Shown here piece after piece: positions 32,705-48,378 of a stretch of 64,000 nt of DNA (the stretch's first letter is position 1; the number at the start of each line of letters is the position of its first letter). Below the pieces are notes generated by a model, which was not told where the DNA came from, did not search any database, and was given only the letters and a program-made list of their open reading frames with translations. Location of the stretch: contig OMXP01000002.1 of NCBI GenBank assembly GCA_900315055.1, forward strand, positions 1 to 64,000, written 5' to 3'. The position numbers and the translations under genes were made by a program. This DNA comes from an uncultured Lachnospiraceae bacterium. Lineage in GTDB: Bacteria; Bacillota; Clostridia; Lachnospirales; Lachnospiraceae.

Positions 32705-32733
32705 TTGTCAATACTTTGCGTTCGCGGTATAGT
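32705..32733 (+). promoter_or_regulatory. Sigma-A promoter of the MBOAT operon
   Basis: TTGTCA (32705-32710), exactly 17 bases, TATAGT (32728-32733). It is the only good promoter I found before the ten genes 32808-45922, whose gaps are all under 50 bases. Confidence 0.7.
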
Positions 32734-32807
32734 CCACGTTCGGGGAAAAGGGGGCAGAGACGATGACAGGATGCATGTCTCTGCTTTCGTGTGGAGAGGA
32801 ATACGGA

Positions 32808-34265
32808 ATGGAATACAACAAGCCGCTTTATCTTTGCGCTTTTTTGCCGCTCATGGCACTGCTCTGCCACTATGCGCCGGAGAGGCACAGGCGGAAGATA
32901 CTCATTGTCGCGGATCTGATCTTTTACGTGCTGCTTGCCGGGAAGATGACGCCGGTCTTTTTGCTGACCGTATTGGTCACCTGCCTCCTGACAAGGCGAA
33001 TCGGTACATCGAATGGCAGGGGAAAGACAGCCTGGTTTCTTCTTGGCATTGTCCTTCTGTTCGGGCCGCTCTTTGCGTTCCGGTTTCTTCGGCTGTTTCC
33101 GTCTTCTCCCACGGGAATCTCCTATTATACCCTGATGGCGGCGGCGTGCCTGATTGAGGTGTACTGGGGACGGCTCTCACCTTTGGGGCTTACGGATACG
33201 TTCCTCTTTCTTTCCTTTTTCCCGCAGGTTCTGCAGGGACCGATTGCAAGGCCGGAGGATACCATGGAACAGCTCCGGCACCCGGCTGCCGTGCACCGGC
33301 CGGAGATCCGCGCAGGGCTTCTTCGGATCCTCTGGGGGCTGTTCAAGAAGCTTGCCATCGCCGATCGCCTGAACATGGTTGTCGGCATGCTGTTTCGGGA
33401 GTACACGAACTACCACGGGGCCTGGATTCCGTTTGCCGCGATCTGCTGCACGCTGCAGCTGTACATGGATTTCTCCGGCATGATTGATGTCAGTATCGGA
33501 TCGGCACAGCTCTTCGGCATTCGTCTCCCCGAGAATTTCCGCCAGCCGTTTCTCTCCGAGGATGCGGGGGAGTTCTGGCGAAGATGGCACATCACTCTCG
33601 GTGTATGGCTGAAGACCTATGTCTATTACCCCATTGTCACTGCAAAGCCTGTCCTGAAGCTCATGAAGAGCACCAGGAAGAAGCACGGCAAATATGCCGC
33701 GCAGCTTCTCGTGAGCTTCCTTGCTCTGACGCCGGTCTGGCTCTTCAACGGCATCTGGCACGGACCGCACCTCAACTATATCCTCTACGGCATCTACTAC
33801 CTCGTCCTGATCCTTCTGAACGAAGCATTAAAGCCTGCAAAGAGCGCCTTCTACAAGAAGACGGGCTTTCGAAGGGAAGGGGCCTTCTTTAAGGTCTTCC
33901 GGATTGCCCGGACGCTGCTCATTGTCGTGACCGGGGAGCTGTTCTTCAGGGCGCAGGGGACGAGGGCAGGGCTTTCCATGATTGCCTCGACCTTCCATGA
34001 CTTTCACCTGTCAGATCTGACACTCACCAATCTCCATACCTTCGGCCTTGATACCGCGGACTATGCGCTGATCCTGTTCGGGACGGTTCTCGTCTTTGGT
34101 GCGGATCTTCTGCACGAGCACGGCTTTGATGTCAACGTGTGGCTGTCCGGGAAGAGCAGGGCCTTCCGCTTTGCCTGGTACTATGCGGCGGTGGCGCTGG
34201 TGATCATTTTCGGTGCCTACGGCACGGGCTACCTTGCCGTAGACATGATCTACGCGAACTTTTAG
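32808..34265 (+). CDS. MBOAT family O-acyltransferase (first of three)
   Basis: 485 residues with about 11 helices. 'EDAGEFWRRWHITLGVWLK' and 'LFNGIWHGPHLNYILYG' are the two MBOAT signatures; His318 in the second is the expected catalytic residue. Relatives DltB, AlgI and PatA take an acyl or aminoacyl group from a cytoplasmic thioester and pass it through the membrane to a surface polymer. ATG 32808 follows GGAGAGGA. The next gene encodes the SGNH-like partner that usually finishes such transfers. It heads a ten-gene operon that also encodes a ligase and a carrier protein. Confidence 0.88.
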   Translation: MEYNKPLYLCAFLPLMALLCHYAPERHRRKILIVADLIFYVLLAGKMTPVFLLTVLVTCLLTRRIGTSNGRGKTAWFLLGIVLLFGPLFAFRFLRLFPSSPTGISYYTLMAAACLIEVYWGRLSPLGLTDTFLFLSFFPQVLQGPIARPEDTMEQLRHPAAVHRPEIRAGLLRILWGLFKKLAIADRLNMVVGMLFREYTNYHGAWIPFAAICCTLQLYMDFSGMIDVSIGSAQLFGIRLPENFRQPFLSEDAGEFWRRWHITLGVWLKTYVYYPIVTAKPVLKLMKSTRKKHGKYAAQLLVSFLALTPVWLFNGIWHGPHLNYILYGIYYLVLILLNEALKPAKSAFYKKTGFRREGAFFKVFRIARTLLIVVTGELFFRAQGTRAGLSMIASTFHDFHLSDLTLTNLHTFGLDTADYALILFGTVLVFGADLLHEHGFDVNVWLSGKSRAFRFAWYYAAVALVIIFGAYGTGYLAVDMIYANF

Positions 34266-34278
34266 GGAGGGCAGGACG

Positions 34279-35181
34279 ATGAAAAAAACTTCTTTGAAAC
34301 GTCGCTTTGTTCTTCTCCTGTTTGTGCTGGGACTGGTGGTGCTCCTCGAAGTGCTCTCGTTTGTAAGCGTTTCGATTCTCCGGCACTCGGATCTGACGAT
34401 ACAGAAGAGAAATGCGACGGAGATTGACTTTAAGAGCGTGCCGAGGGATTCACTGGACGGCGTGGTGCTCGGGAGCTCTCTTGCCTACATGAGCGTCCGC
34501 CCGGATGTGATTGAGGAGAGGACGGGAGAGAGGTTCTACGTTCTCGGTCTTCCCGAGGAGAAGATGGCGGAGGCGTACCATCTGTTCCGTTTGGCTCTTT
34601 CGAGACAGGATCTGAAGATCGTCGCGATCGAGTGCGGCATGCTCTTTCAGGAAAGAAGCAAGGTGCAGGAGATCCAGGATACGGCGACCGAGGCGGTATC
34701 CGTGGCCTTTCCGATTATCAAGACCCACGATGCCTGGAAGGCCTTCTTCCCGCATGAGAAATCGGACGAGGTTCGGGAGATGGGCTTTCGCATCGAAAAG
34801 AATTCCGGCGATGTCGTGCCGGCAGATACCACAGGGTACATGGCGCCGACAACAGAATGTGCCCCGATCTCCGCATACAGCAGGATGATCCTGAAGGAAA
34901 TCTGCAGGCAGTGTAAAAAAAGAGGCATTCAGGTCCTTCTCTTCAGTGCACCTTCTGTTGCCGACGGAAGCATGGCAAGGCACAATGCACTGGTAAAACT
35001 TGCCGGAGACCTTGAGGTTTCATACGTGGATTACAATACGAAGGACATCGGGATCGACTGGAGCACGGATACCTGCGACGGGGGAGAGCACCTGAACCTT
35101 CAGGGTGCCGGGAAAGTATCAAAAGCCTTTGCGGAAGATCTGAGGCAGGACACGGCAGGCGACAGAAAGACGGGAAAATAG
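34279..35181 (+). CDS. SGNH-like partner of the first MBOAT protein (DltD/AlgJ-like layout)
   Basis: 300 residues: one N-terminal helix (9-32), then an extracytoplasmic SGNH-like domain. 'VVLGSSLAYMSVRP' holds the candidate nucleophile (Ser66 or Ser67), and 'CDGGEHLNLQGAGK' holds Asp267 and His271 of a DxxxH pair. This anchor-plus-hydrolase layout matches DltD and AlgJ/AlgX, which act outside the cell on the acyl group delivered by the MBOAT enzyme. It starts 13 bases after that gene. The acceptor is not known. Confidence 0.75.
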   Translation: MKKTSLKRRFVLLLFVLGLVVLLEVLSFVSVSILRHSDLTIQKRNATEIDFKSVPRDSLDGVVLGSSLAYMSVRPDVIEERTGERFYVLGLPEEKMAEAYHLFRLALSRQDLKIVAIECGMLFQERSKVQEIQDTATEAVSVAFPIIKTHDAWKAFFPHEKSDEVREMGFRIEKNSGDVVPADTTGYMAPTTECAPISAYSRMILKEICRQCKKRGIQVLLFSAPSVADGSMARHNALVKLAGDLEVSYVDYNTKDIGIDWSTDTCDGGEHLNLQGAGKVSKAFAEDLRQDTAGDRKTGK

Positions 35182-35219
35182 TACAATAGCCGGTGTCGGA
35201 AAAAATGGCGGGAGGAATC

Positions 35220-36749
35220 ATGAGGGATATCACCATACTGGATATGCTGGAGAGGACGGCAGGAGCAAGGCCGGACAAGGCTGCGTTCCGGGATCCCCGG
35301 AAGGCTGTTACGTTTGCAGATCTTGTTCAGGTATCAAAACGGGTTGGAACCTATCTTGCAGGGAAGATTGCGTTCGGAAGCCCTGTTGCCTTCTACATGG
35401 AAAAGAGCGTCGATGCGCTCTGCGGGATGTTCGGGGCAGTCTATGCCGGGGGATTCTACAGCTTCATCGATGTACGGCAGCCCGCGGCGCGGGCAGAAAA
35501 GGCCCTGTCGGTCCTGCAGCCCTCGATTCTTTTCTATGACCGGGCACAGAGGGATAAGGCAGAAGCACTGTCGGTTTCCTGTCCGGCTGTGTGTCTGGAC
35601 GATGTCCTTTCGCAACTGCCGGAGGCAGATGAGAAGGTTTTATCGTCCATTCGCGCCGGGCTTCTCGATACGGATCCGCTGTATGTGAACTTTACAAGCG
35701 GCAGCACGGGGACGCCGAAGGGGGTTGCGGTCTGTCACCGGTCGGTTCTGGACTTTATCCCGTTCCTCGTGCAGATCTCGGGGATCGATGAGACGGACGT
35801 TCTCGGCAATCAGGCACCGTTTGACTTTGATGTCTCGGTCAAGGACATCTATACAACACTGTATACCGGAGCCGAGACGGTGCTCATTCCCCGGGAGTAT
35901 TTCACTGCGCCGACAACGCTCATGGACTACCTGTGTGATCATGAGGTGACGAGTCTTTGCTGGGCAGTCTCCGCCATGTGCTTTGTCTCCATCATGAACG
36001 GCTTTGACTACAGGGTGCCGGAGAAGATCCGAAGGGTCATGTTTTCGGGCGAGGTCATGCCGGTGAAGCAGCTCGATGTCTGGCAGAAGTTCCTGCCGGA
36101 AGCCGCCTTCATCAACCTGTACGGGCCGACGGAGATTACCTGCAACTGCACGTACTACGTGCTGAACCGGACATTTGAAAAGAACGAGAATATCCCGATC
36201 GGGCGGCCCTTCCCGAATGAGCGGGTGTTCCTGCTCGATGAAGAGGATCATCTGGTGACGAAGGAAGGGGTTCTTGGCGAGATCTGCGTCTGCGGCACGG
36301 CCCTGGCCCTCGGCTACTGGAATGATCCGGAGAAGACAGAGAAGGCCTTTGTGCAGAATCCCCTGAACCGGGTGTATCCGGAGCGGATGTACCGGACCGG
36401 GGATCTTGGCACATACGATGCCGACGGGAACCTCGTCTATCACACGCGGAAGGATTTTCAGATCAAGCAGATGGGGCAGCGGATCGAGCTTGGCGAGATC
36501 GAGGCGGCCGCGATGGCGCTTGACGGGGTCTTCCGGGCTGCCTGTGTGTATGATGCGGGAAAGAAGAAGATCCTGCTGTACTATACCGGAGAAAAGGATG
36601 TACCGGCAGTAAAGAAGGAGCTCTCCGCAACGCTCCCGCCCTACATGATGCCGGGAAAGACGGTGCAGGTTTCAGAGCTTCCGATGAACAAGAACGGAAA
36701 GATTGACCGGCAGGCACTGCTGGCTCTTGCAACGGGAGGGAAGAAGTGA
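35220..36749 (+). CDS. AMP-forming ligase, DltA/NRPS adenylation-domain-like
   Basis: 509 residues. 'YVNFTSGSTGTPKGVAVCH' (phosphate loop, residues ~155-172), 'INLYGPTEITCNCTYY', 'MYRTGDLG' and 'NKNGKIDRQAL' with Lys494 are the adenylation core motifs in order. It activates a carboxylic acid with ATP and should load it on the phosphopantetheine of a carrier protein. Resemblance to DltA suggests an amino acid, but the neighbour is a decarboxylase and the carrier is not clearly DltC, so D-alanine cannot be assumed. ATG 35220 follows GGAGGA. Its stop overlaps the decarboxylase start (GTGA), which implies linked dosage. Confidence 0.88.
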   Translation: MRDITILDMLERTAGARPDKAAFRDPRKAVTFADLVQVSKRVGTYLAGKIAFGSPVAFYMEKSVDALCGMFGAVYAGGFYSFIDVRQPAARAEKALSVLQPSILFYDRAQRDKAEALSVSCPAVCLDDVLSQLPEADEKVLSSIRAGLLDTDPLYVNFTSGSTGTPKGVAVCHRSVLDFIPFLVQISGIDETDVLGNQAPFDFDVSVKDIYTTLYTGAETVLIPREYFTAPTTLMDYLCDHEVTSLCWAVSAMCFVSIMNGFDYRVPEKIRRVMFSGEVMPVKQLDVWQKFLPEAAFINLYGPTEITCNCTYYVLNRTFEKNENIPIGRPFPNERVFLLDEEDHLVTKEGVLGEICVCGTALALGYWNDPEKTEKAFVQNPLNRVYPERMYRTGDLGTYDADGNLVYHTRKDFQIKQMGQRIELGEIEAAAMALDGVFRAACVYDAGKKKILLYYTGEKDVPAVKKELSATLPPYMMPGKTVQVSELPMNKNGKIDRQALLALATGGKK

Positions 36750-37945
36750 ACGAAGAAGAACTGAAGGGGCTATATTCTGCGTTCGGAACGCCCCTGTATG
36801 TCTTTGATACGGGAGAGCTTTCCGGGCGCGTAAAGAAGATCCGGGAGATCTTGGGAGATCGGATTCACCTTTGCTATTCCATCAAGGCAAATCCGTTCCT
36901 CGTGCCGGCGATGCTCCCTCTTGTCGACCGGCTCGAGGTGTGCAGCCCGGGGGAGCTTTCGATCTGCGAGGACCGGAAGGTCCCCGGAGAGAAGATTCTC
37001 TACTCCGGCGTCAACAAGATGCCGAACGACATCAAAGACGCCGTCAGTTATGGCGCCGGGATCTGTACGGCGGAATCCGTTCATCAGTTTACACTGGTCC
37101 ATGAGGAGGCTGTGCGGCAGGGTAAGGTACTGCCGATCCTTCTTCGGATCAATGTCGGCTCCCAGTTTGGCATGTCAAAAGAGGATCTCCTGTACCTGAT
37201 AGATCACCGTTCGGAATACCCGAACCTTGTCATCGAGGGGATCCACTGCTTTGGCGGGACTCAGAGAAAGAACCTGAAGATCCAGAGAGGGGAGCTTTCG
37301 ATGCTCCGGGATCTCTTCGAGGAGGTAAGGTCAGAGCATCACTTTGATCTCCACAGACTTGAGTACGGAACCGGGCTTCCGGTTCCCTGTTTTGAGGGGG
37401 ATGACTTCGATCACCCGTTCCGGCTTCTTTCGGACCTTGCCCCGGACCTTCAGGCGGCGGCAGACTTTGCGGACGTCACGGTTGAGATGGGACGTTTCTT
37501 TGCGGCATCCTGCGGCTGGTACCTGACGAAGGTCACGGACATCAAACAGGTGAAAGACGCCTGCTATGCCCTCGTTGACGGCGGGATTCATCACGTCCAC
37601 TACGACGGGCAGATGATGGGCATGAAGGTGCCGAAGATCGTACATCTGAAGGAGGATTCGACGTCGAAGGCCTCTGATCCGGAGACGCATTCCTGGACGA
37701 TCTGCGGGAGCCTCTGCACGACAAGCGACGTGCTGGTGCGGAAGGTGGATCTGGACGGGCTGTCTCTGGGAGATGTCCTTTGCTTTGCCAACGTCGGGGC
37801 CTATTCGGTGACCGAAGCGATGGATCTGTTTCTTTCCCGCACCATGCCGCGCGTGGTATTGTATGATGGACGTCAGGGTGAGCTTGCAAGGGACTTTGTG
37901 GAGTCCTGGAAGCTGAATACACAGGGTGACTCACAGCAGATGTGA
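36746..37945 (+). CDS. PLP-dependent decarboxylase, alanine-racemase fold (Orn/DAP decarboxylase family)
   Basis: 399 residues from GTG 36746. 'HLCYSIKANPF' contains the PLP lysine (Lys47); 'VNKMPNDIKDAV', 'IHCFGGTQ', 'VEMGRFFAASCG' and 'ICGSLCTTSD' (catalytic Cys, Cys324) follow the LysA/Orn decarboxylase pattern. Genuine lysA would not sit in this operon, and the ligase overlap argues for a dedicated role: either making the acid or amine that is loaded, or decarboxylating a carrier-bound amino acid. In exosortase-A exopolysaccharide loci of other bacteria a ligase, a decarboxylase of this superfamily and a carrier also sit together. Confidence 0.85.
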   Translation: MNEEELKGLYSAFGTPLYVFDTGELSGRVKKIREILGDRIHLCYSIKANPFLVPAMLPLVDRLEVCSPGELSICEDRKVPGEKILYSGVNKMPNDIKDAVSYGAGICTAESVHQFTLVHEEAVRQGKVLPILLRINVGSQFGMSKEDLLYLIDHRSEYPNLVIEGIHCFGGTQRKNLKIQRGELSMLRDLFEEVRSEHHFDLHRLEYGTGLPVPCFEGDDFDHPFRLLSDLAPDLQAAADFADVTVEMGRFFAASCGWYLTKVTDIKQVKDACYALVDGGIHHVHYDGQMMGMKVPKIVHLKEDSTSKASDPETHSWTICGSLCTTSDVLVRKVDLDGLSLGDVLCFANVGAYSVTEAMDLFLSRTMPRVVLYDGRQGELARDFVESWKLNTQGDSQQM

Positions 37946-37974
37946 GGATTCATGTTAAGTTGGAGGAAGGATCA

Positions 37975-38205
37975 ATGGACGAATTACTGGAGATTTTGCA
38001 GGACGTGACCGATGAGGTGGATTTTAAGACAGAAGAGCATCTGATCGACGACGGACTGCTGAACTCGTTTGACATTCTGCAGATCATCAGCGCACTGGAT
38101 GATGCCTACGGCATCTCGATCCCGGCATCGGAGATTGTGCCCGCGAACTTCAACAGCGCAAAGGCGATGCTGGCCCTTGTCAACAGGCTGCAGCAGGAAG
38201 GCTGA
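37975..38205 (+). CDS. Acyl/aminoacyl carrier protein
   Basis: 76 acidic residues. 'LIDDGLLNSFDILQIISAL' gives the phosphopantetheine serine (Ser31) in a DGLLNSF context, followed by 'YGISIPASEIVPANFNSAKA', as in small carrier proteins dedicated to accessory pathways. DltC has a similar GLLDSF site, but its third helix differs. ATG 37975 is preceded by GGAGGAAGG and is preferred to an in-frame start at 37942. It lies between the decarboxylase and the second MBOAT gene (8-base gap), so it is the likely shuttle from ligase to membrane transferase. Confidence 0.88.
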   Translation: MDELLEILQDVTDEVDFKTEEHLIDDGLLNSFDILQIISALDDAYGISIPASEIVPANFNSAKAMLALVNRLQQEG

Positions 38206-38213
38206 TTTCATTC

Positions 38214-39776
38214 ATGAGTCTGTTTTCACTCGGATACCTGATGTTCAACGGTATTCTTCTGATTCTGTATTATACGGTCTGCCGCAGGAAGCAGTGGATA
38301 CTGCTTCTTGCGGCAAGCCTTTTTTACTATACCCTGCTTTCGGGACAGGGGATGGTCTACCTTCTGCTCCATGCCCTGGTGACCTATGCCGGCGCAAGGA
38401 GACTTTCTTCCCTGGAGGATGCGTGCAGGATACGGCGAAAGGATCCATCCCTTGACCGGGAGGGGAAAAAGAAGGTCAAGGCAGCCTTTACACGCAGGAA
38501 ACGGGTGGTGCTCTGGACCGTGATCATCCTGCACCTTCTGGTCCTTGCAAGGCTGAAGTACTGGACGGATCTGTTCCCCTCGGCGCCGTCCCTTCTTCTG
38601 CCGCTTGGGATCTCGTTCTACACGTTCATGTCGATCAGCTATCTTGTCGATGTCTACGGCGGGAAGTATCCCGCGGAGCAAAACTTTGCCCGGCTTCTTC
38701 TGTATCTTTCCTGGTTCCCGCAGATGATCCAGGGACCGATCGGGCGCTATCCCGACATGGCGCCGCAGTTTCAGAAGACGCATACGTTTGACTCCGACCG
38801 GGCGCGGCGGGGGATGCTTCTTATTCTCTTTGGCCTTCTCAAGAAATATGTCGTTGCCGACATGCTGGTGAATGAGATCTCGGATCTCTTCGACGGGCCG
38901 GTGGATGGTCTTCCGGGGAGCCTTATCGTATTCGGTATTCTTCTCTACTCGGCGCAGCAGTACGCGGATTTCTCCGGCGGGATCGATATCGTCGCGGGAT
39001 TTTCGAGTCTGTTCGGGATCGAGCTTGCCCCGAACTTTCGGCAGCCGTATTTCAGCACGTCTCTCGGGGATTTCTGGCGGAGATGGCACATCAGCCTCGG
39101 CGCGTTCATGCGGGACTACGTGTTTTATCCGTTTGCGCTTTTAAAGCCTATGCAGAAGTTCGGCAAATGGTGCACGAAGCACCTCGGGAAGCACGCGGGG
39201 CGGGTGCTGCCGGCCTGCATTGCAAACATCCTGGTGTTCTTCATCGTCGGCATCTGGCACGGCGCCCAGCTCCACTACGTGCTCTGGGGTCTGTACAACG
39301 GCCTGGTGATCGCCTTGAGCGACCTCACGGCGCCGTTCTGGACAGGGCTTGCGAATAAGCTCCATATGAATACGGAATCGAAGGGATTCCATGTGTTCCG
39401 GATCATCCGGACCTTTGTGATCGTCAATATCGGCTGGTACTTTGACCGCATCACGGATTTTAGGAGCTGCATGACCTGCCTTGCAAGGACGCTGACGCAC
39501 TTTGATGCGGGACATTTTGCTTCTGCCCTTGTGCAGGAGTTCTGCACCGGATCGGATAAACTGACGGTTTTCGGGAGCATGGCGCTTGCCCTTGTGGGCT
39601 GTATCGTGATCTTTGTCGTGAGTTTCCGGAAAGAGACGGGGCACGATGTTTCCGGGGAGCTGATGGCAGGAAAGCCTGCTGTTCAGGGAGTTCTTGTGAT
39701 GCTGTCCCTGATGCTGATTCTTTCGTCGTTCCTGTTTACGACGAGTGCGGGAGGTTTTCTGTATGCAAACTTCTGA
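38214..39776 (+). CDS. MBOAT family O-acyltransferase (second of three)
   Basis: 520 residues with about 11-12 helices. 'LGDFWRRWHISLGAFMRDYV' and 'FIVGIWHGAQLHYVLWGLY' are the MBOAT signatures, with His349 the expected catalytic residue. It shares the FWRRWH block and the C-terminal 'YANF' ending with the first MBOAT protein, so these two are the closer pair. It lies 8 bases after the carrier gene and is the best candidate to accept the carrier-bound group. Its stop overlaps the next SGNH-like gene by 14 bases. Confidence 0.88.
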   Translation: MSLFSLGYLMFNGILLILYYTVCRRKQWILLLAASLFYYTLLSGQGMVYLLLHALVTYAGARRLSSLEDACRIRRKDPSLDREGKKKVKAAFTRRKRVVLWTVIILHLLVLARLKYWTDLFPSAPSLLLPLGISFYTFMSISYLVDVYGGKYPAEQNFARLLLYLSWFPQMIQGPIGRYPDMAPQFQKTHTFDSDRARRGMLLILFGLLKKYVVADMLVNEISDLFDGPVDGLPGSLIVFGILLYSAQQYADFSGGIDIVAGFSSLFGIELAPNFRQPYFSTSLGDFWRRWHISLGAFMRDYVFYPFALLKPMQKFGKWCTKHLGKHAGRVLPACIANILVFFIVGIWHGAQLHYVLWGLYNGLVIALSDLTAPFWTGLANKLHMNTESKGFHVFRIIRTFVIVNIGWYFDRITDFRSCMTCLARTLTHFDAGHFASALVQEFCTGSDKLTVFGSMALALVGCIVIFVVSFRKETGHDVSGELMAGKPAVQGVLVMLSLMLILSSFLFTTSAGGFLYANF

Positions 39777-40845
39777 GCACAGGATCGGATCGAAGCGGAT
39801 CCGGATCATCGGGATCATCGCCCTGTTTGTCGCAGTTTTCGTTCTTCTGAATGCCCTGCTGTGCTTTCTTATCGAGCCCTATCGCCCGAGCGGCTATGAG
39901 ATGTGGGAGGGATTCCGGTCGAAGACGACCCTCGATACCGTCTATGTCGGGACATCGGAAGCGGAGTGCGGGATTGACCCTGCGGTTGTCGATTCTGCCA
40001 CCGGCTCTTCCTCCTACAATATGGCCACCAACATGCAGGACCTGTACTGTTCCTTTGATGCGATGCGGACGGCCGTGGAAGAAAAGGGGATCACACGCGT
40101 AGTCCTGTGCCTTGATACCGATATCTCTTCCATGGAGAGGAAGGACAACAGCCGGGCAGAGGAGAACTATATCCTTGCCAGGGCAAGAACGGAGTCCGCA
40201 TCGAAGGGGCTGAAGGACCGGCTGTCCTTTGCGTTTTCACCGGAGATCATCGGGACCAGTGCATCCCTTACCCTCTGGTTTCCCTGGATCTACAACCGAT
40301 CCTTTGACGTAAAAAAGAACGTCACGGAGAAGCTCTCCGGGGCGGTTTCGGACCCTTTGGGACACCGGGACGAGAACGGATTTGAACCCAATGACGTGGT
40401 GACGGAGAATCCCGGCTTTGTGGACCGGGAGGACGCAGAATCCTTCAGTACGGAAAACGATCTCACAAAACCGGAACTTACGGACAGCAACCGCCTGCTG
40501 CTCTCCGAGATCCTCATGTACTGCAGAAGTCACGGCGTGACTCTTACGGTGATGGCGCTTCCTGCGGCAAATGTCTTCAACATGTACGATTACGATGCCT
40601 ACCTTGCCTGGACGAAGGAGATCGACGACCTGTGCGCTGCCTATGGGACGCACTTCTACAACTGCAACCTGATCGACAGAAACGTCCTGTTCGTACCCTA
40701 TGACGAGTACAAGGACGTCAGCCATATGAATACGAAGGGCGCAGAGCGCTTTTCTGCATTCCTTGCAACGTTCTTAGAGGCGGATCCGGAGACGGCGTAT
40801 TCCTGGTTTCGGTATTCCAGGCAGCAGTCGGCGGATCTTTTCTGA
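39763..40845 (+). CDS. SGNH-like partner of the second MBOAT protein
   Basis: 360 residues: one N-terminal helix (about 14-37), then an extracytoplasmic domain with 'TVYVGTSEAECGID' (candidate nucleophile Ser) and 'YKDVSHMNTKGAERF', giving the HxNxxG block seen in all SGNH-like proteins of this operon. The middle 150 residues are longer than in the first partner. ATG 39763 follows GGGAGG and overlaps the MBOAT stop, which argues for tight functional pairing. Confidence 0.72.
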   Translation: MQTSEHRIGSKRIRIIGIIALFVAVFVLLNALLCFLIEPYRPSGYEMWEGFRSKTTLDTVYVGTSEAECGIDPAVVDSATGSSSYNMATNMQDLYCSFDAMRTAVEEKGITRVVLCLDTDISSMERKDNSRAEENYILARARTESASKGLKDRLSFAFSPEIIGTSASLTLWFPWIYNRSFDVKKNVTEKLSGAVSDPLGHRDENGFEPNDVVTENPGFVDREDAESFSTENDLTKPELTDSNRLLLSEILMYCRSHGVTLTVMALPAANVFNMYDYDAYLAWTKEIDDLCAAYGTHFYNCNLIDRNVLFVPYDEYKDVSHMNTKGAERFSAFLATFLEADPETAYSWFRYSRQQSADLF

Positions 40846-40893
40846 AGAAGACAAACAGGGAAAAACGGGCACGGGATTTGGAGAGTGAGGGAT

Positions 40894-43470
40894 ATGGTGA
40901 CATCTATGAGAAGATCGTGGTGGCGGTATGGAGGTTTGGCTGCGTCAGCTGTTCTTGTTCTTACGGTCATCTGCATTGCCCTGTTCACGGACCAGCTCTA
41001 CGTCAAAAGAACGTCCGTGCAGGGACAGGAAGAGAGCGGATCGCATACGGTTGAACTGACAAAAGAGCCGACCTCACAGGAATTCTCGTCCAACTATGAT
41101 TATCTCGACGGCGTCATGCTGTATCTTGTTGCAGAAAACCACCCGACGGGAACGGTCAGGGTAAGCCTCTGTCAGAAGGACCGGGTGCTGGATTCTGTTT
41201 CTATCGACGTGAGTCAGGTTCAGGATTCGTCCTGGACAGAGGTAAAGATCAGCAGGATGATCAGACGGGATACGCCGTACCAGCTGGAAATTTCTTTTGT
41301 AAGAGACAGTGACTGTCCGGAAAAAGCCACGCTTTCCTGTGTCATGAACCCGGGGGATACGGTTGTGGAATCAGACCAGTCGACTCTGATCGTGACAGAG
41401 AGCGCCGGAGAGCAGGGGAGCATGCTGCTCGGATTTTATGCCCTCGATGGCAGGACAAAGATCACGATGGGCTGGGTGATCTTCATGGCGGTGCTGTCGG
41501 CGTTGCTGGTAATCGACTTCCTCTTCCCGGACAGCCGCCCCGCTGTCTTTCTTCGTGAAAACCGGTTCATACAAAGCAGGCACGGTCGGAAGGCACTGGT
41601 GATTCTCATCAGTGTTCTGCAGTTTCTGCTCCTCGTCCCGAATGTGGTCTACCATCTCACCAACATCGGTCTGGACCCGAGCTGGCGATACTTTCTGAAT
41701 GTCGCCGGAGAGCAGGGGTATATCTTCGGCAGGGACATTTTCTTTACCTATGGTCCCCTGGGATACCTGTGCTATCTCATGAACCTGAACAACGGACAGT
41801 ACATCGCAGGACTTGTCATCTGGGGGTGCCTTTTTGCCGTGCACATCCTGCTGCTTGTGATCCTCTGCCGGTATGTGCTCTCAGGGCAGCTGTCTCTCAC
41901 GGCCTTTGCGCTGTCCTTTTTCTGCTATCTTCCGCTGATTCACGATACGCAGACGGACAATTACATGCTGTTTCTCGTGCTGCTTGGTGTTGCGGTCTGG
42001 AAGATCGGAGACCGGAAGAAGACGGCTACTGTCCTTGTGAATGCATTGCTGTGCCTGATGTTTTTCAGCAAGTTTTCGACCTTTTCGAACTCCGTGGTGT
42101 TTCTGCTCTTCTTCATCGGTCTGGAACTGGTTTTCGAGCGCGACTGGCATTCGATCTTTCTGCTTCTGCCTGCCTGTGTGATCACGCCTGTTCTCTATCT
42201 TCTGTATAACCCGTCCGTGCGGGACCTCATCGCCTATGTCAGCGGTGTGCTGAAGATCTCGAGCGGCTGGATGAAGACGCAGCAGTGGGACGATATGTAT
42301 TCCGCCAGGGAGTTTCGAAGCCTGTACCTGATCATTGCCCTGTACCTTCTGCTCCTGCTGCTTTCTGTTCTTGCGGACCGGCACCGTTCCACGATGTTGG
42401 CGGCGGGGAGCGTCTCCCTGTTCATGGCATACAAGTATGGCGTCGGTGCCCATGGCATGCCGATGACCATCTGGCTGACAGCCATGCTGTTTACGGTATT
42501 CTACCTGACCCTGCCAGTGGGAAATCCGGTGCCGGCAGGAACCTCGGACTCCCACAGTATCCGGAGAGCCGGTAAAAGTCTTGCCATTCTGATCTGCTGT
42601 ATCAGCATCACGATGCTGCAGAGCGTCAACCTGAGGGTCGGGAGCACGGAGCTGAAGCAAATGGTTCTCGGAAAAATCCATACGGCAACGCATCTGTCGG
42701 AGTCCTCGCTTACACCGGAGCTTGCCGCGAAAGCGGATATCCCGCAGGAGATGCTGGATCTGGTCGGGGATCAGACGATCAGTGTCTATCCCTGGCGCAC
42801 GGCTTATCAGGCAGTCTACCCGGATCTTCATGTCATCGTCGGTCCCTCTGTGCAGAACTGCAACCTGTTTATCCTTTGGCTCGATGAACTCGAGGCTGAC
42901 TGGTACCGCTCCGACAAAGCCCCGGAATATCTTCTGGTCCATGAGGGCACGATCTTCAATCATCTGAAAGGGCTGGAAAATCCTCTGACCTGGGAAGCCA
43001 TCTGGCAGAACTATGAGACGGTAATGACGGGTGGCGGCATGATCCTGCTTGAGAAGAAAGAGGATCAGACGGTCGTTACAAAGACCTTTCTTTGCAGTAA
43101 GACGTACGGGATCACAGATGTGATCGAGGTTCCGGAAGATGCGGACTATGCGGTAATCCATGTGAAGATGGCGCTGCAGGGGAAGCTGAAAGACCTGTTC
43201 TACCGGGCCGGCATGATGACGATGACCGTGACCTATGCGGACGGCAGAAGTGACAGCGGAAGCCTCGTCGTGCCAAACCTTGAATCCGGCTTTTACACCT
43301 TTGAATATCCGCAGACGATGGAGCGGACAGAGGATCTGTTTTCGGGGGAGAAGATGCCGGAAATGACGACGTTCCAGCTTTCCGGGACAGCGGTGCGGTG
43401 TTATGAGAGTACCATGACGATCGACTGGTACAGCGCAGAAAAAAAGCAGGGGGTGTCGTCCTCTTTGTAA
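40894..43470 (+). CDS. Large polytopic membrane protein with N-terminal beta-rich domain
   Basis: About 858 residues. One helix (about 12-33) is followed by an extracytoplasmic beta-rich domain (40-165), then about 12 helices (175-590), then a soluble C-terminal domain (about 600-855). The topology and the first loop around 'NIGLDPSWRYFLNVAGEQGY' resemble GT-C/DUF2142-like proteins, and the N-terminal domain has the same strand pattern as in the two DUF2142 proteins here. I do not recognise a family with certainty. It lies inside the MBOAT operon, so it may build or export the glycan being modified. The start is uncertain: ATG 40894 is 9 bases after GGAGA; GTG 40885 abuts it. Confidence 0.6.
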   Translation: MVTSMRRSWWRYGGLAASAVLVLTVICIALFTDQLYVKRTSVQGQEESGSHTVELTKEPTSQEFSSNYDYLDGVMLYLVAENHPTGTVRVSLCQKDRVLDSVSIDVSQVQDSSWTEVKISRMIRRDTPYQLEISFVRDSDCPEKATLSCVMNPGDTVVESDQSTLIVTESAGEQGSMLLGFYALDGRTKITMGWVIFMAVLSALLVIDFLFPDSRPAVFLRENRFIQSRHGRKALVILISVLQFLLLVPNVVYHLTNIGLDPSWRYFLNVAGEQGYIFGRDIFFTYGPLGYLCYLMNLNNGQYIAGLVIWGCLFAVHILLLVILCRYVLSGQLSLTAFALSFFCYLPLIHDTQTDNYMLFLVLLGVAVWKIGDRKKTATVLVNALLCLMFFSKFSTFSNSVVFLLFFIGLELVFERDWHSIFLLLPACVITPVLYLLYNPSVRDLIAYVSGVLKISSGWMKTQQWDDMYSAREFRSLYLIIALYLLLLLLSVLADRHRSTMLAAGSVSLFMAYKYGVGAHGMPMTIWLTAMLFTVFYLTLPVGNPVPAGTSDSHSIRRAGKSLAILICCISITMLQSVNLRVGSTELKQMVLGKIHTATHLSESSLTPELAAKADIPQEMLDLVGDQTISVYPWRTAYQAVYPDLHVIVGPSVQNCNLFILWLDELEADWYRSDKAPEYLLVHEGTIFNHLKGLENPLTWEAIWQNYETVMTGGGMILLEKKEDQTVVTKTFLCSKTYGITDVIEVPEDADYAVIHVKMALQGKLKDLFYRAGMMTMTVTYADGRSDSGSLVVPNLESGFYTFEYPQTMERTEDLFSGEKMPEMTTFQLSGTAVRCYESTMTIDWYSAEKKQGVSSSL

Positions 43471-43497
43471 CTGTTGACTGATCCTGACTGTAGCAAT

Positions 43498-44952
43498 ATG
43501 ACTTTTCTTTCCGTTTCCTTCATCCTGTTCTTTGCCCTGGTGTTTGCGGGGTACTATCTGGTTCCTGACAGGTACCGGTACCTCGTGATTGCAGCCGCCG
43601 GCTGCATCTTCTACGGATACGGGGAGCCTTCCCGGCTCCTTCTTGTCTTTCTGGTGACGGGGATCGTCTATGCAGGTGGGCTTGTCCTTGAAAGGCTTGA
43701 GAACGGCGGTTTGCGGCGCCGGTGGTATGTTCTGTTCTTTGCTTTGACTCTCGTTCCCCTTGTCATCTGGAAGGTCCTCAGCTGGCAGGGAACGGCGATT
43801 CCGGTGGGACTCTCGTTCTACAGCTTTCAGGCGGCGGGGTATCTCCATGACGTGTATCACGGAAAGCTTTCTGCAGAACGCAATCCTGTCCGTCTCTTTT
43901 CCTTTACCGCCTTCTTCCCGACCATCCTCTCCGGGCCGATTGCAAAGGCAAGATACCTGCTGCCGCAGCTGCGGGAGATTGAGAAACCTTCGTCTGAGAT
44001 GCTGATCCACGGATTTCTTCTGTTCGTTTTTGGTATGGCAGAGAAGGTCCTCGTTGCCGATGCGCTCTCCTCTGCGGTCGCCTTTATCTTTGACCGGTAC
44101 GGGTTTTACGGGAGAGGATACTATCTTGTCGCGGCGATGCTCTTTGCCACCCAGCTCTACGCGGACTTTTCCGGCTATTCGGACATGGCGATCGGCGCAG
44201 CTGCGATGCTGGGGATCCGCCTCGAGAAGAACTTCACGAATCCGTTCCTCTCGGTATCCCTGAAGGATCTCTGGAACAACTGGCATGTGAGCCTGAACGA
44301 CTGGTTCCTCGAAAACATCTACTTCCCACTCGGAGGATCGAGGAAGGGGACGGTGCGAAAGTATGTGAACCTCATGATCGTGTTTCTGGTGAGCGGCCTC
44401 TGGCACGGAACCGGCGTGCACTTCGTGGTGTGGGGACTCTTCAACGGCGCCCTGATGGTTGTGGGAGAGGTGACGGATCCGTACCGGAAGAGGCTGCGGG
44501 GAATGATGCACATCCGGGAGGACAACCCGGTTCTTGTCTGGATCCGGCGGCTTCTGGTGTTCCTTCTCTTTTCTCTGGCGTTCATCTTTTTCAGGGCGGG
44601 GACGACAAAGGACGGAGTGGCGCTCCTTCTCGGGTGTCTGACGGTTCGGCCCTCGGATCTTCGGGCGATCTATCTGCCGCTTCTGTTTGACAATGATTCC
44701 GCAAAGACCTTACTTGTCGGCGTTTGCATTCTCGCCTTCTTCGTCCTCCAGTATCTGCGACGGGGAAAAGTGGTAAAGGGGAAGAACGGAGAGAAGGAGG
44801 TGGTCCTGACATCCGGTGCCTATCAGAGGTTCCGGTCTTTGCCGACCCTTTGTCAGGTGCTGCCGGTTGCCCTTCTTCTTGCCTTTTCGATCTATACGCT
44901 CTGCGCCGGCGGGACGAAGACCAACACCTCGTTCATCTACTTTGCGTTTTAG
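43498..44952 (+). CDS. MBOAT family O-acyltransferase (third of three, AlgI-like)
   Basis: 484 residues with about 11 helices. 'FLENIYFPLGGSRKG' and 'LVSGLWHGTGVHFVVWGLF' (His303) place it near AlgI and related O-acetyltransferases. The first signature reads 'LWNNWHVSLNDWF' instead of FWRRWH, so the RR pair of the other two is NN here. It probably serves a different acyl donor from the first two. No clear ribosome-binding site precedes ATG 43498; translation may rely on the upstream gene 27 bases away. Confidence 0.87.
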   Translation: MTFLSVSFILFFALVFAGYYLVPDRYRYLVIAAAGCIFYGYGEPSRLLLVFLVTGIVYAGGLVLERLENGGLRRRWYVLFFALTLVPLVIWKVLSWQGTAIPVGLSFYSFQAAGYLHDVYHGKLSAERNPVRLFSFTAFFPTILSGPIAKARYLLPQLREIEKPSSEMLIHGFLLFVFGMAEKVLVADALSSAVAFIFDRYGFYGRGYYLVAAMLFATQLYADFSGYSDMAIGAAAMLGIRLEKNFTNPFLSVSLKDLWNNWHVSLNDWFLENIYFPLGGSRKGTVRKYVNLMIVFLVSGLWHGTGVHFVVWGLFNGALMVVGEVTDPYRKRLRGMMHIREDNPVLVWIRRLLVFLLFSLAFIFFRAGTTKDGVALLLGCLTVRPSDLRAIYLPLLFDNDSAKTLLVGVCILAFFVLQYLRRGKVVKGKNGEKEVVLTSGAYQRFRSLPTLCQVLPVALLLAFSIYTLCAGGTKTNTSFIYFAF

Positions 44953-44968
44953 GGAAGGAGAAAGTGGG

Positions 44969-45922
44969 ATGGCGAAATTCTTACGATATGTCCTTCTGAC
45001 CGGTCTTCTCTGCGCCCTGATTCTTACCGGGGCGTTTCTTTGGATCACTCTGTACCCGAAGGGCGTGTTCTCGAATACCTACCAGAGTGTCATTCAGGAC
45101 AAGGTTGCATACGATAAGAGCCTTACAGGGAAGAAGATCGTGATCACCGGGGGATCGAACTGCGCCTACGGGATCGATGAAAAGCTCCTTTCGGAGAAGA
45201 CGGGATACAGCGTAGCAAACCTCGGGCTCTATGCGGGCCTTGGGGATCTGTTCCAGACAGAACTGGTGAAGGCAAACCTCCAGGAGGGGGATATCGTCCT
45301 TCTTGCCTACGAGTACAACTGGCCGGAGAGTACGTCCTTTACGGATATCCTCTCGGATACCGTGATGTCCGGAATCGATGATGATATCGAACTGTACCGG
45401 TACGTCCCCCTTCGTAACTGGTCCCAGATCCTCGGGTATCTCGGAGACTATGCAAAGGACAAGAAGGAACATGAGCAGAACCCCGGGGAAGATCATCACC
45501 ACACGCTCTTTGATGCGGACGGGAGAATGATCCAGGAGCGGCCTTCCTGCATCATGGGAGACTTTGTCGAGGGAGAGTCTTACTACAACCCGGTGGATCT
45601 TTCAGGGGTTACGATCTCGGATGAGACGGTCTCGTACCTGAAAAAGTTCAAGGCATACGTCGAATCGAAAGGTGCCAGTGTCTATATGATCGGCGTTCCT
45701 CTCTGGGACGAGGCGGCGGTGAGTGATCCGTCGACGTTTCAGGAACTTAAGGACGAGGAAGAGGAGAAAATCGGGATCGACTTTATCTCGGATCCTGCGG
45801 AGTACCTGTACCCGAAGGATCTGATGTACGACACGGTGTATCACTGCAACAGTGAAGGCGCGAGGGTACGGACGCTCCAGCTTGTATCGGATCTTCAGGC
45901 AGCAGGGGTCCTTTCGCGGTAA
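44969..45922 (+). CDS. SGNH-like partner of the third MBOAT protein
   Basis: 317 residues: an N-terminal helix (about 6-26), then an extracytoplasmic domain with 'IVITGGSNCAYGIDEKLL' (candidate Ser) and 'DTVYHCNSEGARVRTL', the HxNxxG block. The middle part has a His-rich segment ('GEDHHHTLFDADGR'). It starts 16 bases after the third MBOAT gene with an AGGGAAGGAG site. It is the last gene of the operon; a spacer of 71 bases precedes the next start. Confidence 0.72.
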   Translation: MAKFLRYVLLTGLLCALILTGAFLWITLYPKGVFSNTYQSVIQDKVAYDKSLTGKKIVITGGSNCAYGIDEKLLSEKTGYSVANLGLYAGLGDLFQTELVKANLQEGDIVLLAYEYNWPESTSFTDILSDTVMSGIDDDIELYRYVPLRNWSQILGYLGDYAKDKKEHEQNPGEDHHHTLFDADGRMIQERPSCIMGDFVEGESYYNPVDLSGVTISDETVSYLKKFKAYVESKGASVYMIGVPLWDEAAVSDPSTFQELKDEEEEKIGIDFISDPAEYLYPKDLMYDTVYHCNSEGARVRTLQLVSDLQAAGVLSR

Positions 45923-45993: not shown

Positions 45994-47088
45994 ATGAGAG
46001 GGAATGGAAAGAAAAAGAAGGCACCACTGGGGCTTGTGATCCTTCGCATCGTGCTGATTGTCCTGATTATTGTTCTGGTCCTTGCCGCGGGACTGGTGCT
46101 GTATCTGACCGTGACGGAGTACAAGCCGGCATCTGAGGAGCCGGTTGAGGTTGAGACGGAAGGGTCTGGCGAATCCGTACAGGCAGGGGATGAGCTTCGC
46201 ATCGTCACCTGGAACTGCGGGTACGGAGCCCTCGGGGACAACGCGGACTTCTTCATGGACGGTGGTTCCATGGTAAAGACTGCGACGAAGGAGAGGGTGG
46301 AGCAAAACCTTGCAACGCTCCGGGCTGAGATCTCTTCACTGTCGCCGGATATCACCTTTCTGCAGGAGGTGGACACGGACTCTGCAAGGTCGTATCACAT
46401 CGATGAGGTGTCCTTTCTTGGAGAGGGGGGTGCGTCCTCCGACTTTGCCTACAACTACAGGGTGGTCTTTGTCCCCTACCCCGTCCCGCCGATGGGAAAG
46501 ATTTATTCCGGTGTTGCGACACAGACGGACCTGTCGGTGAGTTCTGCCACGCGCATCGCCCTGCCGTGCCCCTTCAAGTGGCCGGTGCGCGTCGGAAACC
46601 TGAAGCGGTGTCTTCTCGTAAACCGGGTGCCGGTTGATGGAAGCAGCAAAGAGCTCGTTCTTGTCAATCTCCACCTCGAGGCCTATGACGACGGTGAGGG
46701 GAAGGCGGCGCAGACGAAGGTCCTGTGCGACTTCTTAAAGAGCGAGTACGAAAAGGGCAACTACGTGATCGCAGGGGGCGACTTCAATCAGACCTTTTCC
46801 GGGACGGATACGTCGATGTACCCGGACAAGGAGGGAACCTGGCAGTGCGGGATCCTCGACGAGAGCGATTTCCCAACGACCTTTCAGTTCTGTCAGGACA
46901 GCTCAACGCCCACCTGCAGGTCCCTCGATATCCCCTATGCGGGAGCAGATCACGACACGTTTCAGTACTACGTGATCGATGGCTTTATCGTCTCGGACAA
47001 CGTCGAGGTGCAGTCCTGCAGGACGCAGGACCTTGCCTTTACCGCGACGGATCACAACCCGGTGCTGATGGAAGTCAGGCTGAAATAA
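45994..47088 (+). CDS. Membrane-anchored endonuclease/exonuclease/phosphatase family protein
   Basis: 364 residues. A basic start and one helix (about 12-38) anchor an extracytoplasmic EEP domain: 'LRIVTWNCGYGALGDN', 'FLQEVDTDSAR', 'VIAGGDFNQTFSG' and 'FTATDHNPVLMEV' supply the metal-binding and catalytic Asn/Glu/Asp/His residues. Related surface enzymes are sphingomyelinases, phospholipid or sugar-phosphate phosphodiesterases and nucleases; the substrate cannot be chosen. A TACAAT at 45949-45954 may be its -10. It follows the MBOAT operon and could belong to it by read-through. Confidence 0.85.
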   Translation: MRGNGKKKKAPLGLVILRIVLIVLIIVLVLAAGLVLYLTVTEYKPASEEPVEVETEGSGESVQAGDELRIVTWNCGYGALGDNADFFMDGGSMVKTATKERVEQNLATLRAEISSLSPDITFLQEVDTDSARSYHIDEVSFLGEGGASSDFAYNYRVVFVPYPVPPMGKIYSGVATQTDLSVSSATRIALPCPFKWPVRVGNLKRCLLVNRVPVDGSSKELVLVNLHLEAYDDGEGKAAQTKVLCDFLKSEYEKGNYVIAGGDFNQTFSGTDTSMYPDKEGTWQCGILDESDFPTTFQFCQDSSTPTCRSLDIPYAGADHDTFQYYVIDGFIVSDNVEVQSCRTQDLAFTATDHNPVLMEVRLK

Positions 47089-47089
47089 T

Positions 47090-47114
47090 AATCGATCCTT
47101 TGATCGATTTCACA
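47090..47114 (+). terminator. Weak stem-loop between EEP gene and ugd
   Basis: AATCGATC (47090-47097) and GATCGATT (47102-47109) form an 8-bp stem with a 4-base loop, followed by a T-poor tract (TCACATTT). It may be a weak terminator or a protein-binding palindrome. Confidence 0.3.
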
Positions 47115-47130
47115 TTTGGAGTGTAATGAT

Positions 47131-48378
47131 ATGAAAATCGCAGTCGCAGGAACCGGCTATGTCGGGTTATCGCTGTCTGTTCTGCTGTCCCAGCACAACG
47201 AGGTGACGGCAGTGGACATTATCCCGGAAAAGGTGGAGAAGATCAACAACAGGATCTCGCCGATCCAGGACGAATACATTGAAAAGTACCTTACAGAGGA
47301 CAAGGAAGGGAAACGGACACTCCATCTCCATGCAACCACCGACGGGGCGGCGGCTTACCGGAACGCGGATTTCGTGATCATCTCGACGCCGACGAACTAT
47401 GACAACAAGAAAAACTTCTTCGACACCTCGGCGGTGGAGCAGGTGATTGAGCTGGTGCTGTCCGTCAATCCGTCTGCCATCATGGTGATCAAAAGCACCG
47501 TTCCGGTCGGCTATACGGCAAGGACCCGGGAGAAGTATCACACATCCAATGTCCTCTTTGCCCCGGAGTTTCTCCGGGAGAGCAAGGCGCTCTATGACAA
47601 CCTGTATCCATCCCGCATCATTGTCGGTACGGACAGGAGTGATCCAAAGCTCGTCGATGCCGCGCACACCTTTGCGGATCTTCTGCAGGAGGGGGCGATT
47701 GAGGAGAATATCCCGAAGCTGTTTATGGGATACACCGAGGCGGAGGCGGTGAAGCTCTTTGCGAACACCTACCTTGCCCTCCGGGTCTCCTACTTCAATG
47801 AGCTTGATACCTATGCGGAGATGAAGGGACTCGATACGAAGTCGATCATCGACGGCGTCTGCCTCGATCCCAGGATCGGGACGCAGTACAACAACCCGTC
47901 CTTCGGGTACGGCGGCTACTGCCTGCCGAAGGATACGAAGCAGCTTTTGGCCAACTACCAGGACGTCCCCGAAAACCTGATTCAGGCGATTGTCGACAGC
48001 AACCGGACGCGGAAGGACTTCATCGCCGAGCGGGTGCTGGAGATGGCGGGAACCTACAGCGAGTCGGATTACTATGATGAGAAGAAGGAGCACCCGGTGG
48101 TGATCGGCGTGTACCGGCTCACCATGAAGAGCAACAGCGACAACTTCCGCCAGAGCTCGATTCAGGGCGTCATGAAACGGATCAAGGCCAAGGGCGCGCA
48201 GGTGATCATCTATGAGCCGACGCTCGAGGACGGGACGACGTTCTTCGGGAGCGAAGTGGTCAATGATCTTGATGAGTTCAAGAGGCGCAGCAATGCGATC
48301 ATCGCAAACCGCTACAACACGGTGCTCGACGATGTGAAGGACAAGGTCTACACGAGGGATATTTTCCGGAGAGACTGA
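47131..48378 (+). CDS. ugd: UDP-glucose 6-dehydrogenase
   Basis: 415 residues. '[19 protein letters not shown]' is the NAD-binding GxGxxG fold, '[11 protein letters not shown]' and 'STVPVGYT' the conserved NAD loop, '[20 protein letters not shown]' the substrate loop, and '[19 protein letters not shown]' the catalytic-Cys motif. It oxidises UDP-glucose to UDP-glucuronate in the cytoplasm, the precursor for uronic acids in the surface polymer. It is the only nucleotide-sugar biosynthesis gene in the window. ATG 47131 is 10 bases after GGAG. Confidence 0.95.

Follow-up and report, generated by a model that had tools for sequence, protein, structure and literature searches.

Described relatives of the cassette

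Teichoic acids are D-alanylated by the Dlt pathway (DltA, DltB, DltC, DltX, DltD), and the resulting surface charge affects both how well cells resist cationic peptides and how the host recognises them. Here we analyse a ten-gene operon in a 64,000-nucleotide stretch of DNA from an uncultured Lachnospiraceae bacterium (contig OMXP01000002.1, positions 1 to 64,000; hereafter the window), the core of which is a conserved five-gene cassette: an adenylating ligase (LIG), a pyridoxal phosphate (PLP)-dependent decarboxylase (DEC), a stand-alone carrier protein (ACP), an MBOAT membrane acyltransferase and its SGNH-type partner. These five genes were found together in dozens of genomes. On balance, they probably encode a Dlt-like pathway for the acylation of surface glycans, in which the cargo is remodelled on the carrier. 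An earlier note on this DNA had proposed a Dlt-like machine with a cargo processed by decarboxylation, and the proposal is supported: of the three outcomes set beforehand as speaking against it, all were tested and none holds, the ligase not being a true DltA, the decarboxylase not being a displaced LysA and the gene neighbourhood being conserved.

Like Dlt, the cassette combines an adenylating ligase, a stand-alone carrier, an MBOAT and an SGNH partner; no coenzyme A (CoA) donor is expected, and the model of the second SGNH protein of the operon (SGNH2) matches DltD first, though level with other SGNH hydrolases. Unlike Dlt, it adds a decarboxylase, its ligase, carrier and MBOATs all lie far below the Dlt equivalog cut-offs, the LIG pocket differs from the DltA pocket, the MBOATs fall outside the DltB branch, and the shuttle motif that Dlt keeps on the separate DltX is fused to the MBOAT. 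On the DltA equivalog TIGR01734, LIG scored 272 bits against a cut-off of 559.85 (DltAs of the class score 501–549); the carrier scored 22.4 against 52.35 on TIGR01688 and 35 against 68 on PRK05087, both DltC equivalogs; and all three MBOATs of the operon scored 151–167 against 375 on the DltB equivalog TIGR04091. A true Dlt operon is ruled out by these scores.

Other described systems share part of the cassette. BtrI/BtrJ/BtrK of butirosin biosynthesis has a stand-alone carrier and a fold-III PLP decarboxylase in the same subgroup as DEC; BtrJ, however, is an ATP-grasp ligase, whereas LIG is an adenylating ANL enzyme, and the butirosin product goes to an aminoglycoside with neither MBOAT nor SGNH. 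VinN/VinL/VinO and BolO/BolC/BolN come closer, with an ANL ligase, a carrier, a BtrK-type decarboxylase and loading before decarboxylation, but their ligases are only ~26% identical to LIG with other pockets, and they feed polyketides and lipopeptides rather than surface glycans. The exosortase-A trio (TIGR03098, TIGR03099), seen in Sinorhizobium pSymB, brings the same three gene types into polysaccharide loci, and TIGR03099 is the best NCBIfam match of DEC; both scores are nevertheless under the cut-off (185.8 vs 592.35 bits for TIGR03098, 173.2 vs 478.45 for TIGR03099), the ligase is 26% identical, and the Sinorhizobium locus is without an MBOAT. PatA/PatB, which O-acetylates peptidoglycan, resembles the operon in its MBOAT/SGNH pair and its C-terminal hexapeptide (FIYANF in Neisseria gonorrhoeae PatA, MIYANF in MBOAT1), yet PatA uses acetyl-CoA whereas pairs 1 and 2 of the operon are tied to a carrier. 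Judged by its sequences, the cassette would work like Dlt with a Btr- or Vin-type step added, yet falls outside Dlt, LysA and the exosortase trio, because each failed a defining feature tested. We found no paper joining MBOAT, decarboxylase and carrier in a search that covered neither preprints nor most subscription papers.

Architecture, recurrence and MBOAT lineage

The ten genes lie on the + strand at 32808–45922, with intergenic spacings, in gene order, of +13, +11, −4, −4, +8, −32, +39, +3 and +13 nucleotides (nt); the 4-nt overlaps (GTGA) fall at LIG/DEC and DEC/ACP. The tight coupling described in the earlier note was borne out in coordinates, spacings and catalytic motifs alike, as were its three MBOAT/SGNH pairs with an HxNxxG block, confirmed by PF03062 matches and by the SGNH blocks. 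By Pfam profiles, LIG is an AMP-binding match, DEC has the Orn/DAP/Arg decarboxylase fold and the carrier is a PP-binding match. The features are as follows.

32705..32733, +: candidate promoter TTGTCA-17-TATAGT, sigma-70-like, 10/12 consensus matches, based on consensus only
32808..34265, +: MBOAT1, membrane acyltransferase (PF03062, E 1.3e-18), ends in MIYANF (acyl-shuttle motif); cassette-linked clade
34279..35181, +: SGNH1, membrane-anchored SGNH-type transferase with GSS and DGGEHLNLQG blocks, 13 nt past MBOAT1
35193..36749, +: LIG, adenylating amino-acid:carrier ligase (AMP-binding, E 1.2e-59; TIGR01733 above cut-off); predicted pocket residues D235, V236, K239, W279, S301, N331
36746..37945, +: DEC, fold-III PLP decarboxylase, BtrK-like, GSLCTT motif (from PDB sequence and fold matches and a tree)
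37942..38205, +: ACP, stand-alone carrier (PF00550, E 7e-5), predicted phosphopantetheine Ser in LLNSFD (alignment of 36 relatives)
38214..39776, +: MBOAT2 (PF03062, E 1.8e-16), ends in FLYANF; cassette-linked clade
39745..40845, +: SGNH2, DltD-like SGNH transferase with GTS and DVSHMNTKG blocks, fold match to DltD
40885..43470, +: large polytopic membrane protein, 861 aa, family unknown
43474..44952, +: MBOAT3 (PF03062, E 1.7e-27), ends in FIYFAF; outside the cassette-linked clade, predicted acetyl-CoA user
44966..45922, +: SGNH3, partner of MBOAT3, with GGS and DTVYHCNSEG blocks, 13 nt past MBOAT3

A DEC search of the genome collection returned 30 relatives, and gene maps show the five-gene cassette recurring around them, so that the conserved neighbourhood anticipated in the earlier note is found widely across genomes. 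Among 57 loci, the order LIG-DEC-ACP-MBOAT-SGNH occurs 20 times, MBOAT-SGNH-LIG-DEC-ACP eight times and SGNH-MBOAT-LIG-DEC-ACP five times; the exact ten-gene order was found only in this genome among the loci compared, the closest locus (L014) holding homologues of MBOAT2/SGNH2 and MBOAT3/SGNH3 and the trio in a different order. DEC is present in 40 of 200 genomes of the same family (one per genus, E 1e-90 or better), about one fifth; judging by the named relatives, this family is probably Lachnospiraceae. The cassette is concentrated in it, since only 4 of the 398 genomes of the phylum sample carry it; outside the family it was found in Erysipelotrichaceae, Gemmiger and Slackia, and a spirochaete contig has the trio. 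Eubacterium ramulus and Lachnospira multipara are among its culturable bearers. In 20 neighbourhoods taken from the high-scoring end of the 40, and thus not a random sample, the ligase (20/20) and the carrier (19/20) stand beside DEC, and an MBOAT lies within five genes in 17. Chance grouping of the genes is ruled out by this adjacency, against ~5% expected per 14 kb from this genome's own MBOAT density, and by the recurrence across genomes. At nine non-cassette loci of the class with a related decarboxylase, no MBOAT was found. The genes flanking the cassettes differ from genome to genome. In one cassette without an MBOAT, an AT3 acyltransferase (PF01757; L019:7347-8357) directly precedes the ligase, as if in place of the MBOAT/SGNH pair.

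A tree of 66 MBOATs placed all cassette-adjacent MBOATs, MBOAT1 and MBOAT2 in one clade (100/100) of two halves, one with MBOAT1 and the other with MBOAT2. Three further members also sit in cassette loci, so within the sample the clade occurs only there, and MBOAT2 is 45–57% identical to the cassette MBOATs of other genomes. Outside it lie MBOAT3 and another seven of this genome's MBOATs, with DltB far away. With MBOAT1 and MBOAT2 in the cassette clade and MBOAT3 out of it, the most economical interpretation is that pairs 1 and 2 would be carrier-fed, and MBOAT3 probably uses acetyl-CoA. The suggestion made earlier that the other pair or pairs could use acetyl-CoA is supported by the tree for pair 3 only. 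At least 11 MBOAT genes were counted in the 3.1 Mb of this genome, the others being on contigs 24, 26, 79, 87, 91, 99, 106 and 109, in our judgement an unusually large set for one bacterium.

Gene families, catalytic motifs, gene association and clades are thus established at the level of sequence. The pairs carry the features of bacterial MBOAT/SGNH acyltransferases: an MBOAT domain with its His, an adjacent SGNH protein with Ser and Asp-His, and a C-terminal FXYXXF. The WHG His is invariant, and the C-terminus of every one of the 53 MBOATs in the loci reads Y-x-x-F/Y, the first residue of the FXYXXF motif being other than Phe in MBOAT1 and some relatives. No separate DltX microprotein was found in the operon, whose gaps do not exceed 39 nt and whose MBOATs each carry the motif in fused form; DltB lacks the motif because DltX supplies it. 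SGNH1–3 gave no Pfam match, and each has a G-x-S and a D..H-x-N-x-x-G block (GSS/HLNLQG, GTS/HMNTKG and GGS/HCNSEG). The first fold match of the SGNH2 model (pLDDT 88) is Streptococcus pneumoniae DltD, at an E of only 1.6e-4 that is level with other SGNH hydrolases. In PatA and DltX the C-terminal Tyr motif becomes acylated, forming an acyl-Tyr shuttle (PMC12148441); the same paper links a fused shuttle motif to acyl-CoA donors and does not describe one with a carrier donor.

Ligase, decarboxylase and the proposed pathway

LIG lies well above the cut-off of the general amino-acid adenylation family (TIGR01733). Its pocket positions were set by eye from an alignment to the textbook GrsA specificity code, which carries some risk; at these positions Asp235, Val236, Lys239, Trp279 and Asn331 are shared by 34 of 35 relatives, the remaining one having Arg in place of Lys239, and Ser301 by all. 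Three DltAs show Leu236, Met or Ala239 and Ser279 at the same columns. Asp235 fits the free amine of a substrate, and Lys239 appears to favour an acidic one, with no choice between Asp and Glu. Lys239 is also part of a known glutamate code, for which our literature search found nothing.

The best solved relative of DEC by PDB sequence is BtrK, an L-glutamyl-[BtrI carrier] decarboxylase. In the tree, 38 cassette DECs form one clade (100/100) separate from LysA (100/100). The residue after the catalytic Cys is Thr or Ser in all 38 and Glu in LysA, and Thr at this position is common to BtrK, SbnH, a Vin-like and an exosortase-type enzyme. The acidic residue after Cys contacts the distal amine in LysA and ornithine decarboxylase; its loss therefore disfavours diaminopimelate, lysine or ornithine as the DEC substrate. 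The LysA RPxxY block is likewise absent from the cassette clade. DEC looks active, since its PLP lysine and the residues for phosphate binding and catalysis do not vary, and by its nearest relatives and CT motif it belongs with the BtrK-type carrier-linked decarboxylases. A displaced ordinary LysA is ruled out by a score of 165.6 bits against the LysA equivalog cut-off of 297.9, by CT in place of CE, by the separate clade and by a separate LysA-like gene on contig 64 of the same genome. Elsewhere, a decarboxylase of LysA type (L036:13417-14712) is found two genes away from one belonging to a cassette, and on a Nitratidesulfovibrio plasmid (L050:1-2185) an annotated diaminopimelate decarboxylase has the CT motif and an ATP-grasp neighbour, a pair that may be BtrJ/BtrK-like rather than LysA.

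From these features we infer the LIG and DEC substrate, on-carrier timing, the cargo and a glycan acceptor as follows. LIG would activate an acidic amino acid (Asp, Glu or a close analogue) through its side-chain carboxyl and load it onto holo-ACP; the side-chain carboxyl must be the one activated if decarboxylation follows loading, because fold-III PLP decarboxylases act at the alpha carbon. DEC would then strip the alpha-carboxyl from the ACP-bound residue, giving beta-alanyl-ACP from Asp or 4-aminobutyryl-ACP from Glu. On the cytoplasmic side, MBOAT2 and MBOAT1 would accept the carrier's aminoacyl group and pass it to their own C-terminal FxYxxF-like Tyr outside, from which SGNH2 or SGNH1 would take it onto its own Ser and esterify a hydroxyl of an extracellular glycan, adding positive charge. 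The probable role of MBOAT3/SGNH3 is to acetylate the same polymer or a different one, with acetyl-CoA as donor. A narrower version is a tentative proposal, to which we give somewhat less than an even chance: gut Lachnospiraceae may place ester-linked 4-aminobutyrate (GABA) or beta-alanine, made on the carrier from glutamate or aspartate, on a surface glycan, the MBOATs having adopted the carrier independently of DltB and two MBOAT/SGNH pairs sharing one carrier for two sites or polymers.

The earlier note had left it between decarboxylation before loading and decarboxylation on the carrier. The latter is favoured by the kinship of DEC with BtrK, by the LIG pocket and by two precedents: VinN/VinO, where thioester formation is required before decarboxylation on the carrier (PMC11284099), and BolO/BolN of bolagladin, where the same order is proposed and free beta-alanine failed to rescue a bolN deletion (PMC7756342). 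Decarboxylation could instead come first, DEC making free beta-alanine or GABA for LIG to load, with the same final substituent. IdnL3 of incednine biosynthesis does decarboxylate free beta-glutamate ahead of loading (PMC11284099), and the LIG-DEC-ACP gene order does not fix the order of steps; BtrK, however, works on a carrier-bound substrate, and the buried Lys239 would suit a free carboxylate that beta-alanine and GABA lack, so we regard this route as distinctly unlikely. A different cargo, with some other acidic or acylated amino acid as the DEC substrate (such as a diamino acid, a hydroxy acid or diaminopimelate, the last giving lysine) and another amine-bearing acyl group as the substituent, is rather unlikely. 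SbnH shares the CT motif, and structure titles give its substrate as a citryl-diaminopropionate conjugate, so the motif reports an absent distal amine and not Asp or Glu as such, and the LIG pocket gives no unique substrate; the conversion of diaminopimelate to lysine is itself disfavoured by the missing Glu and RPxxY block and by the separate LysA-like gene.

A trio with no part in MBOAT-mediated glycan acylation, its product being a small metabolite or a lipid head group, next to MBOAT pairs using acetyl-CoA, appears highly improbable. It would account for the eleven loci, some on short contigs, where no MBOAT directly adjoins the trio, and for the housekeeping genes that follow the trio end in L011, and non-Dlt MBOAT/SGNH systems are thought to use acyl-CoA (PMC12148441). 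It sits poorly with the 17 of 20 adjacent MBOATs, with their absence from the nine non-cassette loci, with a clade of trio-linked MBOATs that leaves out the other seven of the genome, and with L019, where an AT3 acyltransferase stands directly beside the ligase.

Several findings weigh against loading followed by decarboxylation on the carrier and transfer to a glycan. The reading of Lys239 comes from alignment to textbook specificity codes and not from a ligand-bound model, and LIG lacks the pattern of the VinN pocket (Arg331, Ser299). The fold search also put BtrK first, at Z 40.9 against 40.0 for a LysA, a lead of less than one Z unit that amounts to a tie, and Foldseek and VIA ranking alone cannot separate the two; the branch uniting cassette DECs with Vin-like enzymes is weak (58/95). 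About one in seven cassettes has no MBOAT nearby, and no acceptor-glycan gene is consistently linked, clustering of flanking genes having given only a family-2 glycosyltransferase at 7 of 37 loci.

If the on-carrier pathway holds, it would be an undescribed cousin of teichoic-acid D-alanylation in which an amine-bearing group is passed through the membrane onto a surface glycan, and a cargo of GABA or beta-alanine would mean that gut commensals bear a new kind of substituent on their envelope. No strong DltA match was found in this genome or in most sampled genomes of the class (3/118 at E 1e-100 or better), a gap that a second aminoacylation route would fill. MBOATs with a fused shuttle motif are connected with acyl-CoA in current papers (PMC12148441), and the pathway would extend their donors to a carrier protein.

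Other features of the operon

The single promoter that the earlier note placed ahead of the operon is matched by the sigma-70-like site at 32705–32733; as promoter-like matches in the region number 11 against a shuffled expectation of 7.3, near chance level, the assignment is only suggestive. The 861-aa membrane protein had no relative of note in Pfam, PHROG or PDB sequences and no strong homologue among 240 genomes of the class; our guess is that it is perhaps a glycosyltransferase or polymerase. The start of MBOAT2 contains a hairpin of 16 pairs without a mismatch and, after it, a T run (38280-38325, +; fold −37.8 kcal/mol, z −6.2), absent from ten other cassette MBOATs checked. It resembles an intrinsic terminator and could attenuate the downstream genes or be a coincidence. 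Just past the operon, at 45994-48378, lie an exo/endonuclease-phosphatase family gene and a UDP-glucose/GDP-mannose dehydrogenase, the latter hinting at uronic-acid glycan synthesis nearby.

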